From Candidatus Gastranaerophilales bacterium (GTDB lineage Bacteria > Cyanobacteriota > Vampirovibrionia > Gastranaerophilales > Gastranaerophilaceae): a DNA stretch of 59,075 bases. The DNA lies in the NCBI GenBank assembly GCA_944324485.1, contig CALUWM010000012.1, positions 1 through 59,075 of the forward strand, given 5' to 3'. A model generated the notes under the pieces. That model saw only the letters and a list, made by a program, of their open reading frames with translations. It ran no database searches and was not told the DNA's origin. Shown piece by piece: positions 9,265 to 27,854 of the stretch. The first letter of the stretch is position 1. Every line of letters begins with the position of its first letter. The position numbers and the translations under genes were made by a program.

Positions 9265-10821
9265 GTGCGTATTTCACCGGTTAATTTTAATCTTTTAAAT
9301 AGAAAATATACAAAACAAATTGAAAACAAAAATCATTCAATGTTATCTTATAATTCAAATGTATGTAAAGAAAATTGCTATCCTATTTTTAAAGCAACAT
9401 TCAAGCCTAAACAAACCAAAGATGTACCCGAAAAAAGTCCATTAATAGCTGCAATAGAAGCAGAAGAAAATGGGGTAGAATCAATAGAAAACATTGCTAA
9501 AAGCTCTTTATACGAATTTAGACAAGCAATGCTTGAAACTGATCAATACGGATACACGCCATTATTACATGCAGCAATCACAAAACATCAAGGAGCCGAA
9601 AAGTTAAGAATCTTAGCAACATACGCTCCAAAAGAATTTAAACAAACAAGCTCAACTCCAAACAGACTTGGTAATACCCCCTTATCATATGCTGTAATAT
9701 CACAACATAATGGAATTGAAAAAATAAAAGCTTTATATAAATACGCACCAAATGAAACAAAAAAAGCACTTGAAATACCCGACCAAAATGGTTATACACC
9801 ATTACATTATGCAATAATTTCAGAATATAACGGAGCAGAAAAAATAATGGCGCTATATAAAATTAATCCTGAGGTTACAAAAAATTTATTAACAAAACAA
9901 AGTCTGCCATATAAAGAAACACCTATATCATTAATTAAAGCCCAAGTAAAAGACAAGGAAAAAAAATTAGCTATACTACAAAAAATTGCACCTGGAATTG
10001 TTGAACAAAACACTCTATCAGAAAAAAATACAGGCTCAGATGATTATGAAAATTTCTTAATAAAATCACAAGAAGAAAATTTATCACAAGATGATATTAA
10101 AGCAATAAAAGAAAAGTTATCCACTCCAAATTGTGAAAATGACACACTTCTTTCATACGCAGTAAAATCAAAAAAAATTGAAGCCTCAACTATACATAAC
10201 CTTGCAAAAATTGCTCCAAAAGAATTTAAAAAAGCAATGCTTGAAGCTGATCAATATGGCTACACACCAATTTTTTATGCAATCATTTCACAAAATAAGA
10301 CAGAAAAATTAAAAGCTCTTATTGAAAATGCTCCAGAGGAGATTAAGTTGCTTATGCAATCAAAAGATGACTTCAGTCAAACAATAATAAACTATGCTAT
10401 AAGAGCAAAAATTAATGGAGCGGAAAAGTTAAAAATTATAGCTCAAGCATTACCCGAAGAAACAAAAAACTCAATTTCAAATCTAAATTCAATAAAAAAT
10501 ATGCCCACAGTACAAGCACTAATGTCTAGCCATGACAGTACCAAAAAATTATACGCCCTATCTCAAATTGCTCCTGAAGAATTTAAATTATCAATACTAT
10601 ACCAAGATTCAGAAGGAAACAACCCTGTTATGCAAACAATAATTAATCTACCCGATGGAGAAGAAAAACTAAGAATATTAAATATATTAACTCCAAAAGA
10701 AACAAGATATGCGCTTTTAAGAAAAAATACAGACAATAAAACGCCATTTGATATAGTAAGGAATACCGGATCTAAAGATACAAATTTATTAAAAACGATA
10801 CAAGAAATACTAAATAACTAA
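9265..10821 (+). CDS. Ankyrin-like protein built of 40-residue repeats
   Basis: A 518-residue protein starting at a GTG with AAAGGA upstream. Residues 93-132, 133-172 and 173-212 are successive units of exactly 40 residues, consensus DxxGYTPLxYAII...GAEKlxaL...AP-E-K-al; more diverged units continue to ~residue 505, and the sequence around residue 330 (MLEADQYGYTP) nearly repeats that around residue 90. The core GxTPLxxA is ankyrin-like, but the classical unit is 33 residues. There is no classical signal peptide; the N-terminus reads MRISPVNFNLLNRKYTK, then PIFKATF near residue 40. Probably a protein-binding solenoid. A terminator follows at once. Confidence 0.7.
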   Translation: MRISPVNFNLLNRKYTKQIENKNHSMLSYNSNVCKENCYPIFKATFKPKQTKDVPEKSPLIAAIEAEENGVESIENIAKSSLYEFRQAMLETDQYGYTPLLHAAITKHQGAEKLRILATYAPKEFKQTSSTPNRLGNTPLSYAVISQHNGIEKIKALYKYAPNETKKALEIPDQNGYTPLHYAIISEYNGAEKIMALYKINPEVTKNLLTKQSLPYKETPISLIKAQVKDKEKKLAILQKIAPGIVEQNTLSEKNTGSDDYENFLIKSQEENLSQDDIKAIKEKLSTPNCENDTLLSYAVKSKKIEASTIHNLAKIAPKEFKKAMLEADQYGYTPIFYAIISQNKTEKLKALIENAPEEIKLLMQSKDDFSQTIINYAIRAKINGAEKLKIIAQALPEETKNSISNLNSIKNMPTVQALMSSHDSTKKLYALSQIAPEEFKLSILYQDSEGNNPVMQTIINLPDGEEKLRILNILTPKETRYALLRKNTDNKTPFDIVRNTGSKDTNLLKTIQEILNN

Positions 10822-10850
10822 AAAAAACGACTCAACAGTCGTTTTTTTTA
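10821..10850 (+). terminator. Rho-independent terminator of the repeat-protein gene
   Basis: ACGACT (10827-10832), loop CAAC, AGTCGT (10837-10842), followed by a T tract to 10849; the preceding A tract extends the stem. It begins on the last base of the stop codon. Confidence 0.85.
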
Positions 10851-10934
10851 GTTAAGAAACGAATTTTATTAAGAAATGTAACAAAAAAAACAATAAAAGC
10901 AATTTTTTATTTTATATATACTTTATATATATGT

Positions 10935-11047
10935 AAGACATAAATACCTCCCCCCTACATAGTTAATTTTAACACACTAACCTTTTCACACGAGAATCAA
11001 GCAAAAAGATTTTCAAAGCCCTTAAATTATTAAGGGCTTTTTTTTAT
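10935..11047 (+). ncRNA. Candidate small C-rich RNA or gcvPB leader
   Basis: Between the terminator at 10850 and gcvPB at 11089 there is no open reading frame, yet a second strong plus-strand terminator sits at 11015-11047. Something must be transcribed into it: a free small RNA of about 100 nt or an attenuated leader. The putative 5' end follows an AT-rich, -10-like stretch (10924-10931); the exact start is not defined. The segment contains ACCTCCCCCCTAC (10946-10958), which can pair with the GGGGAG ribosome-binding site of gcvPB. No known riboswitch fold was recognised. Confidence 0.4.
11015..11047 (+). terminator. Strong Rho-independent terminator upstream of gcvPB
   Basis: AAAGCCCTTAA (11015-11025), loop ATTA, TTAAGGGCTTT (11030-11040), continuing into a run of T to 11045. 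An 11-bp perfect stem. It lies 42 nt before the gcvPB start and has no gene to end except the candidate RNA above. Confidence 0.85.
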
Positions 11048-11088
11048 TTGTTATATAATTAAATTAAAAATATTTTGGGGAGTATTAA

Positions 11089-14792: not shown

Positions 14793-16892
14793 CTACATAC
14801 CAGGTAAAGGTGCAGAGTTTAGTGCTTTTTCATCATCGTATTCAATTAAATCAGGTTTTGGAACCTCAAAAATCTTTTTTGGTTTTTGAGGTTTTGCTTG
14901 CTCAATATTATTTTGATTTGAAGGTGTGTTAACAGGCAAAGGCGCAGACACAGTAGTCTTATTAACCATTACATCATCTTCATCAGTTTCATCAACTGTT
15001 TCATCAGCATCTTCAAGCTTTATTGGGCTCAAAACATTTGAACCATTCATTTTAGGATAATCAAACACACTTTTTGGGAAGTTTTGAATTGCAACTTTCA
15101 TATATTCAGCAAATACTCTTGCCGGCATAGCACCACCTGTAATCCCCGGAAGCTTAGAATTATTATCATTTCCAACCCAAACTCCGGTAACAATATCCGG
15201 CGTATAACCCACAAACCAAGCGTCCCTGTAATCGTTTGTAGTACCTGTTTTTCCTGCAACATTTTGTGCAATATTAGCAGCTTTTCCTGTTCCTACCTCT
15301 ACAACTTTTCTCAACATATACGTCATACCGGCAGCAGTTTCAAAATTAATTACTTTAACTATCTTCGGTCCTGAGTTTTCATAAATTGTAACACCTCTTG
15401 AATTTTCAACACGCTCAACGCAATACGGGCGAACTCTAAAACCACCATTTGCAAATGCACCATATGAAACAACCATATCATACAACTTTACACCATTAGA
15501 TCCTAAGGCAATCGTCATATCACTCGCTAAAGGTGTAGTGATTCCCATTTCCCGAGCTGTTTGAATAACTGCATCTACACCTGATTTTTTTATAAGCCTT
15601 ACAGCTGCAACATTAGAGGAAATTGCAAGAGCTTGCCATATAGTAATCTTGCCTCTATACTTTTTACCATAATTTTTAGGAGTCCAGTCCTGAATGGTAA
15701 GAGGAGTATCTTCAATCGTATCATCAACGCTTACTCCCTGTTGCAATGCAGTTGCATAAACAAAAGGTTTAAATGAAGAACCCGAAGGCCTTATAGCTTT
15801 AGTTACTCTATCATATTGACTTTGTTCATAGTTCTTTCCGCCAATATAAGCGTATATTCTACCTGTCGTAGGAGAAAATGAAAACAGGGCAATTTGATTT
15901 GCAGGTTTTGTTAAACCAGCCTTATTGAGCGCATTCTGCACTGCATTTTGAGCAGCATTCTGCGATTTATAATCAAGAGTAGTGTATATCTTTAGACCAC
16001 CTTGAGAAATTTCCTGCTCTTCAAAACCAATATTCTTTAACTCGTTTAATACAAAATCTATATAATATGGCGCTTTATTGTACGAGTAGATACGGGGCTT
16101 ATTTGATAAGTGCAGCCCCTCCTTTTGAGCTGCTACCATTTGTTCTTGTGTAATATATTTATTTCTGTACATTCTCCTTAAAACTTGGTTTCTTCTTTTT
16201 AAGCCAGCTTTTTTATTTGCAAAAGGAGAATATATAGATGGTGCTTGAGGTAAACCGGCGATAAGTGCTTGTTCAGCAAGAGTCAACTGTGATAAATCTT
16301 TATCAAAAAACGTTCTTGCCGCACTGGAAACACCATAAACACCTGATCCTAAATACACGGAATTTAAATACAATTCCAATATTTCATCTTTTGAAATAGT
16401 TTTTTCAATTCTATGAGCAATAATTAATTCCTTGATTTTTCTATCAAAAGTTCTTTCGTTTGACAAGAAAAGTATTCTGGCTAACTGTTGTGTAATTGTT
16501 GAACCACCCTGTTTAACTTCACCGGACAATACATTTGTAATAGTAGATCTAATCATGCCCATAGTATCAAAACCTCTATGATGATAGAAGTTTTTATCTT
16601 CAGTAGCAATTACAGCTTCTTTTAAATATTTTGGAATCTTGTCTATTGAAACTTTCTCGAATTTAAAAGCTGTAAAAGTTTTTATTACTTCCCCATCAGC
16701 AGAATATATTGTTGTGACAGGATTTGGTTTAATATCTTCAAAATTTGAAATAGGAGGAAGTGAAGCTAAATATATATTAAAAGCAGCAATTGCAGCAAGC
16801 ATTGCAGAAACACACATTGAAAACAAACACAAAAATATATTACGCTTTTTTGGTCCTCTTTTAGTAACTCTTTTTCTTCTAACACTATTCAT
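14793..16892 (-). CDS. Class A penicillin-binding protein (PBP1A-like)
   Basis: Bifunctional peptidoglycan glycosyltransferase/transpeptidase, 699 residues, anchored by one N-terminal membrane segment (~22-45). The GT51 domain shows ATEDKNFYHHRGFD with the catalytic Glu and GGSTITQQLARI; the transpeptidase has SxxK in SGSSFKPF, SSN in AISSNVAA and KTGTT. The C-terminal ~80 residues are a low-complexity Asp/Glu/Pro-rich tail (DETDEDD). No Shine-Dalgarno sequence; TGCTATAAT ends 8 nt before the ATG. Its end abuts the convergent acetyltransferase gene directly. Confidence 0.95.
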   Translation of the reverse strand: MNSVRRKRVTKRGPKKRNIFLCLFSMCVSAMLAAIAAFNIYLASLPPISNFEDIKPNPVTTIYSADGEVIKTFTAFKFEKVSIDKIPKYLKEAVIATEDKNFYHHRGFDTMGMIRSTITNVLSGEVKQGGSTITQQLARILFLSNERTFDRKIKELIIAHRIEKTISKDEILELYLNSVYLGSGVYGVSSAARTFFDKDLSQLTLAEQALIAGLPQAPSIYSPFANKKAGLKRRNQVLRRMYRNKYITQEQMVAAQKEGLHLSNKPRIYSYNKAPYYIDFVLNELKNIGFEEQEISQGGLKIYTTLDYKSQNAAQNAVQNALNKAGLTKPANQIALFSFSPTTGRIYAYIGGKNYEQSQYDRVTKAIRPSGSSFKPFVYATALQQGVSVDDTIEDTPLTIQDWTPKNYGKKYRGKITIWQALAISSNVAAVRLIKKSGVDAVIQTAREMGITTPLASDMTIALGSNGVKLYDMVVSYGAFANGGFRVRPYCVERVENSRGVTIYENSGPKIVKVINFETAAGMTYMLRKVVEVGTGKAANIAQNVAGKTGTTNDYRDAWFVGYTPDIVTGVWVGNDNNSKLPGITGGAMPARVFAEYMKVAIQNFPKSVFDYPKMNGSNVLSPIKLEDADETVDETDEDDVMVNKTTVSAPLPVNTPSNQNNIEQAKPQKPKKIFEVPKPDLIEYDDEKALNSAPLPGM

Positions 16893-26732: not shown

Positions 26733-27854
26733 TTAAATAGAACCATCTAATAATCTATACTCGCCAAACGCTTGCAATACTCCTATTACATTTTCATATC
26801 CATATTGTTGAACTAATGTATTGTAATTTGCGCCATCTTTAATTAAAGCTGCATAAATTGCCTTTTGTTTTGCAGATAGACCACTGAGTACAGCTTTTAC
26901 CAATCCGCCATTTGCACTAGCATTTGCTTTTAAAGTTTTTATTAATCCTTGTCCACCTATACGCTTCAATATACTTGAAATGCTGGTTTTAATATTACTT
27001 GGTTTTAATGCACTTCTTACATTTGTTCCAAATTGAGACAAGCTATTAGCAGTAGCTTTCACTTCAGGAGAGCTGTATGTTTCCAATACATCCAATTTTC
27101 TTTGTTGAGCAAGTTCGTCTGCTGTTAAAGCACCTTTTTGATTTGCTACCGCTTTTCTTGTATTATTCAATTCTCTGGCATCCAAGAATGTTCTTACATT
27201 TGACTTTAATCTTGCAAAATTATTTTTACTTGAAGATATCATATCTTTACCTAAAGCCTTCAAATATCCTAAAGGATTGCTTGTAAATGATGAAGTTTCT
27301 TTAAATGTAGATAACGCTCCGGCAGAAGAAGAATTTTGCACTGCCTTGATTGAACTCTTTGCTCCAAAAACAGATAAGCCTAATGTTAGACCACCTTCAC
27401 CAACTTGTTCCCAAGCGTCTTTTGCTTCCGCATCTGTATCAGCATTCAAAGCATTAACCACACCTGAAGCAAGTTTTACACCGCCGGTAACTGCTCCAGC
27501 TCCTGCTAAAACAACACCAGCAGCAGGAAATACTACACAAGCAGCCGCTGTACCAATTGATAACAATGTTTTACCCAAAGAAAAATTACCGTTTGAATCG
27601 GTAAATGCACCTTTTATGCCTTTTACTATGCTTTTTGCCGCTCCTTCAATAATATTTCCTATTGCACTAAAAAACCCTATTTTTCCATCATCGTTTCCAT
27701 CAGTACATGTATTGCCGGATTCAGAAGTATCTGTAAAAACCGATTCATTTAAATCTGATTGCCGAGATTGTTCTGCAACCATTTTTCTTCGTGCATTTGC
27801 AATAAACTGATTACTTGCAGCCTCAAAATCTGCCGCAACAATAGATGTTGACAT
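26733..27854 (-). CDS. Unrecognised Gly/Ala/Ser-rich protein with a hydrophobic core
   Basis: A 373-residue protein with no assigned family. Residues 1-50 are polar; residues 52-59 form a Ca-binding-loop-like DGNDDGKI, and DSNGNF follows at 86-91. Residues ~95-130 are strongly hydrophobic and Gly/Ala-rich (ACVVFPAAGVVLAGAGAVTGGV). The remainder is helical, Ser/Lys/Asn-rich. There is no signal peptide. It has a strong GGGGAGGA ribosome-binding site 10 nt before the ATG and stands alone between two terminator or promoter regions. Possibly exported by a non-Sec route or membrane-associated; this is a guess. Confidence 0.65.
   Translation of the reverse strand: MSTSIVAADFEAASNQFIANARRKMVAEQSRQSDLNESVFTDTSESGNTCTDGNDDGKIGFFSAIGNIIEGAAKSIVKGIKGAFTDSNGNFSLGKTLLSIGTAAACVVFPAAGVVLAGAGAVTGGVKLASGVVNALNADTDAEAKDAWEQVGEGGLTLGLSVFGAKSSIKAVQNSSSAGALSTFKETSSFTSNPLGYLKALGKDMISSSKNNFARLKSNVRTFLDARELNNTRKAVANQKGALTADELAQQRKLDVLETYSSPEVKATANSLSQFGTNVRSALKPSNIKTSISSILKRIGGQGLIKTLKANASANGGLVKAVLSGLSAKQKAIYAALIKDGANYNTLVQQYGYENVIGVLQAFGEYRLLDGSI

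Follow-up and report, generated by a model that had tools for sequence, protein, structure and literature searches.

A multicopy small RNA gene family with a conserved HLR1-like promoter repeat in Candidatus Gastranaerophilales

Does the gap upstream of gcvPB in a Candidatus Gastranaerophilales genome hold a leader that controls this gene, or a separate small RNA? The window analysed here is a stretch of 59,075 nucleotides, in which a sequence-only reading had drawn attention to a strong terminator closing a region devoid of reading frames. Both observations were confirmed: no ORF of at least 60 amino acids lies between 10822 and 11088, and the terminator (11015-11047) consists of a stem at 11015-11040 followed by a run of T. 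The C-rich word noted upstream, AATACCTCCCC (10943-10953), does pair with GGGGAGTATT (11077-11086) through ten base pairs with one bulged C, and CCTCCCCCC occurs once in this AT-rich window against 0.02 occurrences expected by chance. The TATAAT at 11054-11059 had been taken as a hint of a separate gcvPB promoter, and this holds: a TATAAT hexamer stands before gcvPB in each of the 14 orthologues examined, whichever direction the neighboring sRNA faces. The features of the region are as follows.

10815-10854, strand not assigned: terminator-like hairpin with A/T flanks and an 18-pair stem, 3' of an ankyrin-repeat ORF
10865-10882, + strand: HLR1-like direct repeat TTTATTAAGAAATGTAAC (reverse complement of KTTACAWWNNKTTACAWW, two mismatches), proposed RpaB site
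10899-10904, + strand: GCAATT box, a -35-like promoter element, each base 95-100% conserved in 66 promoters
10919-10937, + strand: core promoter and start region TACTTTATATATATGTAAG, most positions 94-100% conserved in 66 promoters from many genera
10937-11047, + strand: sRNA, one of three copies in the genome (covariance models R1 and R2, 123-129 bits)
10943-10955, + strand: putative C-rich anti-Shine-Dalgarno word AATACCTCCCCCC, genus-specific
10972-10982, + strand: family core ACACACTAACC, predicted to be unpaired
10992-11014, + strand: hairpin 1, GAGAATC/GATTTTC (94.6% of cells paired, two pairs with two-sided changes)
11015-11047, + strand: Rho-independent terminator (91.3% of cells paired, 7 of 7 pairs with two-sided changes)
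11054-11059, + strand: TATAAT, -10 element of gcvPB's own promoter
11077-11086, + strand: gcvPB ribosome-binding site GGGGAGTATT; pairing with the sRNA is possible and is not conserved

With one hairpin at 10815-10854 and the terminator at 11015-11047, positions 10855-11047 are insulated on both sides. The suggestion of a separate C-rich RNA was upheld, as a gene of about 110 nucleotides with its own promoter and its own terminator; like a trans-encoded sRNA gene, it has neither an ORF nor a fixed mRNA partner. The segment 10937-11047 folds with a z-score of -5.6 relative to shuffles, mostly owing to the terminator, and both the C-rich word and the core are unpaired in the predicted fold. The predicted 5' end lies at about 10930-10938. 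The upstream neighbor, an ankyrin-repeat ORF with a GTG start (9265-10821), is diverged or absent in relatives although gcvPB is kept.

Copies, distribution and structure of the family

A DNA search of 39 relatives matched the gap in genomes of the genus and revealed further sites within these same genomes. The source genome has three copies: that of the window, one beside pyrG (contig C9, 50295-50430) and one beside acpS that is truncated where contig C28 ends. A covariance model built for the family was positive in all 28 genomes of the genus, with one to five copies each, and in 111 of 146 genomes across the order, every match falling within one family. With a second covariance model, applied to a sample of 386 genomes from the phylum, 156 genomes of that one family were positive, and the remainder of the sample yielded doubtful matches only, none convincing. 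The matches span some 30 genera. Records with a label are given as Candidatus Gastranaerophilales, 'Cyanobacteria bacterium' or uncultured metagenome-assembled genomes (MAGs). The sRNA family is present in most genomes of one family of Candidatus Gastranaerophilales, which are non-photosynthetic Cyanobacteriota.

Weak matches in one genus with small genomes, from a different family of the phylum (E-values of 0.002-0.01 over the 386 genomes), were taken as chance, because the window itself has a 33-bit match within a coding gene (16288-16420). The phage records searched gave no match, and 25 viral contigs that carry the core pattern are not matched by the covariance model. When the window and 20 related loci were compared with Rfam 15 at the gathering threshold, nothing matched except one tRNA; the best sub-threshold scores were 28.7 for Phe_leader (gathering 55) and 18.7 for Yfr10 (gathering 43), and a permissive search was fruitless. 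We found no literature on sRNAs in Gastranaerophilales. The family is apparently undescribed and of a kind that is already known; the surprise lies in the proposed link to RpaB.

Many MAG contigs end inside a copy (L005, L037, L062, L067, L070, L072, L081, L088, L089 and L095). Near-identical copies break assemblies, and copy counts are therefore lower bounds. In some other genera the copies occur as tandem pairs, spaced about 230-320 bp from start to start (L172, G052:C9, G077:C15, G088:C25 and G104:C6).

From 30 aligned copies we derived a common plan. At the 5' end stands GUAAGACAUAAA, followed in most copies by a C-rich word; after a spacer that varies in length come ACACACUAACC and ACACGAG, and the unit closes with a small hairpin and the terminator. 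The covariance analysis in relatives that had been proposed for this gap supported the structure, in that the terminator stem varies in sequence yet stays paired. Among 83 distinct sequences, 92.9% of cells were paired compared with 79.5% in shuffles, the covariation score was 0.449 compared with 0.217, and two-sided changes affected all seven terminator pairs and two hairpin pairs. These values come from an alignment fitted to the covariance model and hence favouring that structure, and the signal is lost when the partners are shifted by one to three columns. From the plain alignment, RNAalifold recovered four terminator pairs only, which is why the model-based alignment was used instead.

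The core word ACACTAACC is intact in 72 of 77 copies. Some loci had been retrieved with the core word, which biases this figure in part, although the copies that BLAST and the model located in other genera keep the core too. The C-rich word behaves differently. At least four consecutive C were found in the 5' part of 41 of the 53 copies of the genus and in none of the 24 copies from other genera. Judged from these alignments, the C-rich word is a genus-level addition; it cannot be the common function of the sRNA family, and any family-wide function must rest on the core. Within the genus, the word may widen or redirect targeting.

The promoter and its candidate regulator

The promoter boxes GCAATT and TACTTTAT..ATGTAAG are 94-100% conserved at most positions across 66 promoters of the family. 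Farther upstream, 54-55 nt from TACTT and at near-fixed spacing, lies a direct repeat resembling the reverse complement of HLR1, the RpaB site of cyanobacteria with the consensus KTTACAWW-NN-KTTACAWW (PMC13421787, PMC11633204). Its spacer and W positions vary and TGTAA is largely kept. Of 72 promoters examined, 13, from several genera, match HLR1 exactly and 62 match with at most two mismatches, most boxes departing from it at one or two positions; shuffles gave exact matches in 0 of 7200 cases and matches with at most two mismatches in 2.9%, statistics that overstate the significance because the sRNA copies are related by descent. Genome-wide, sites with at most two mismatches are hardly commoner than in the control (497 versus 470), and the argument for RpaB thus rests on the fixed position and conservation of the repeat. 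The window's own box has two mismatches and spans about -65 to -48 if transcription starts at 10930, or -72 to -55 if it starts at 10937; the position described for activation is -66 to -45 (PMC13421787).

The genome encodes three full OmpR-type regulators, and the sole OmpR-type protein to pass any equivalog cut-off is an RpaB equivalog (NCBIfam NF045944, 361 bits against a cut-off of 330). Its gene (G000:C9:40122-40355) shares a contig with the sRNA copy at C9:50295-50430, at a distance of about 10 kb. RpaB is a light and redox regulator of true cyanobacteria, and homologues of RpaA, RpaB and NblS, those of RpaB and NblS being of unknown function, were reported in Melainabacteria in 2013, a lineage from which photosynthesis genes are absent (PMC3787301). 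Since these organisms lack a photosystem, the presence of such homologues has been a puzzle. A conserved HLR1-like box before an sRNA family offers a concrete candidate for an RpaB regulon. We put forward tentatively, as a possibility rather short of a probable one, that RpaB keeps its HLR1 site in this non-photosynthetic gut sister lineage and that one of its principal regulons is a multicopy antisense-RNA family. If so, a circuit of RpaB and an sRNA either predates photosynthesis in the lineage or persisted without it.

The conserved promoter might instead be read by a regulator other than RpaB, such as an RpaA-like, a PhoB-like or another OmpR-type protein. TGTAA direct repeats 10 bp apart fit OmpR-family proteins generally, two further OmpR-type regulators are available, and the one or two departures from HLR1 in most boxes would be accommodated. 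Against this, the 13 exact matches come from several genera and RpaB alone among the OmpR-type proteins passes an equivalog cut-off, and we regard another regulator as somewhat unlikely.

Candidate targets and competing explanations

Candidate targets were ranked by duplex energy over 388 gene starts (the window plus 400 kb), and no single one stands out. The 5' segment is predicted to pair at -7.5 kcal/mol at gene starts versus -6.0 in coding sequence, and shuffled segments at -8.1 versus -7.7 kcal/mol. Genome-wide, neither the complement of the C-rich word (33 occurrences versus 40 in the control) nor that of the core (381 versus 608) is enriched. A second GGGGAG ribosome-binding site, mentioned earlier as another possible target, does exist, at the gene at 26733-27854 on the minus strand (MSTSIVAADFEAAS..., no Pfam match), and this gene comes third of the 388 starts in predicted pairing with the C-rich 5' end. 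In this genus only, the sRNA has what a C-rich anti-Shine-Dalgarno RNA is expected to have, namely a word that is accessible in the predicted fold and prefers gene starts. As far as sequence can indicate, a general blocking of GGGG-type Shine-Dalgarno sites is plausible.

As a particular target, gcvPB found no support: it ranks 25th of the 388 gene starts, and its GGGGAG ribosome-binding site is kept solely in the four closest species, being absent from the relative represented by locus L004, where the sRNA has the same word and orientation and gcvPB has a different ribosome-binding site. This bears also on the idea, likewise raised by the sequence-only reading, that the region is a cis-acting leader or attenuator in which the terminator and the pairing of the C-rich word with GGGGAG switch gcvPB on and off. 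The copy of the window does stand immediately before gcvPB, shares its direction and has the 10-bp match to its ribosome-binding site. However, the unit is multicopy, with other copies beside clpC, pyrG, rpsA, acpS and other genes (these names are our own reading of the adjoining proteins), and of the 14 species with a copy next to gcvPB, seven have it pointing towards the gene and seven have it facing away, so the sRNA is not a gcvPB leader by its orientation. Here, moreover, the TATAAT of gcvPB lies downstream of the terminator. Synteny has largely refuted the leader, and we give it hardly any credence.

Two further explanations dispense with antisense pairing. In one, the RNA would serve an RNA-binding protein as a decoy or scaffold, the protein recognizing the invariant ACACACUAACC...ACACGAG core, as might be expected from a core that is near-invariant across genera beside a variable 5' word, from the lack of enrichment of its complement in the genome, and from several copies per cell, which suit titration. 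No candidate protein was found, though, and an invariant core is typical of antisense seeds too, such as the Yfr1 motif; we consider a decoy unlikely. CsrA is present in the genome, and a CsrB-type decoy of it was considered and rejected: GGA motifs are almost absent from the copies of the genus, and a CsrB-like role therefore does not fit. In the other, the copies would be functionless remnants of a dispersed repeat or a mobile element, with which the varying neighbors and copy number and the contigs often ending within copies would agree. Yet promoter and core are conserved, the terminator covaries, model matches extend over so many genera, and the clustered neighbors include no transposase-like gene, which makes debris very improbable.

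We favour a free-standing, multicopy, trans-acting sRNA gene at 10937-11047 that would be activated by RpaB and whose product would pair with mRNAs, probably blocking ribosome-binding sites, and we hold this to be reasonably likely as a whole. Sequence comparison establishes the gene family with its copies, the structure with its covarying terminator, the conserved promoter with the HLR1-like repeat and the RpaB equivalog; transcription, the binding and sign of RpaB, and the targets are all predictions. An RpaB-type response regulator would bind the HLR1-like repeat, some 50-70 nt before the start, most likely activating, and RpaB or a close OmpR-type regulator would set the transcription of several copies together. 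Transcription would stop at the intrinsic terminator, and the accessible, G-poor 5' part and the core would pair with mRNAs in trans. The C-rich 5' end, taken in reverse complement, gives an ideal ribosome-binding site, GGGGGGAGG-UAUUU-AUG; as the antisense of such a site, the 5' end GACAUAAAUACCUCCCCCC in this genus probably keeps mRNAs with G-rich Shine-Dalgarno sites from being translated. Paralogues whose 5' words differ slightly may share or split targets. A search of 11 genomes found no Hfq, and the family would add an sRNA to a gut lineage for which we found no regulatory RNA described.

Comparison with known systems places the family near several of them. PsrR1 of Synechocystis is a trans-acting sRNA in a feed-forward loop with RpaB, within the RpaB/HLR1 regulon (PMC13421787), and the present RNA would likewise be a cyanobacterial trans-sRNA tied to RpaB and HLR1, here through predicted binding. 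It differs in showing no sequence homology, in being multicopy in non-photosynthetic gut bacteria, and in carrying its HLR1-like box far upstream, about where activating sites are described to lie. As for the HLR1/RpaB regulon of cyanobacteria at large, the RpaB equivalog is shared and the direct repeat is HLR1-like, whereas photosynthesis genes are missing here and the putative boxes mostly show one or two departures. Yfr1 and Yfr10 are short RNAs with an invariant unpaired motif beside stem-loops and are near-universal in their lineage (PMC6778093). The present sRNA has these same properties, but with another motif, another order of parts and a Yfr10 score below the Rfam gathering threshold. 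An assignment to Yfr1 itself, whose motif with UCCU lies between two stem-loops, was rejected: here ACACACUAACC is followed by the hairpin and the terminator, and Rfam gave no match.

C-rich anti-Shine-Dalgarno sRNAs are known as RsaE-type RNAs in Firmicutes and as the Cuckoo and CcsR RNAs in Proteobacteria, Cuckoo being multicopy. The present RNA resembles them in its unpaired CCUCC(C) word, which would be expected to block ribosome-binding sites, and resembles Cuckoo in copy number; it differs in that the word is limited to one genus and in lacking Rfam homology to them.

In relatives, sRNA copies adjoin genes of two kinds without Pfam matches, one starting MGWVTLTLRK, which is multicopy, and one starting MSYKND (L288:3000-6455 on the minus strand, L274:5450-6265, L091, L096, L050 and L083). 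The ribosome-binding sites of these genes in the source genome are among the top 20 predicted pairing sites. At L179:40-60, close to where a pilin-like ORF starts, an AT-rich genome has twelve consecutive G, which may be a phase-variable tract or an error of assembly.
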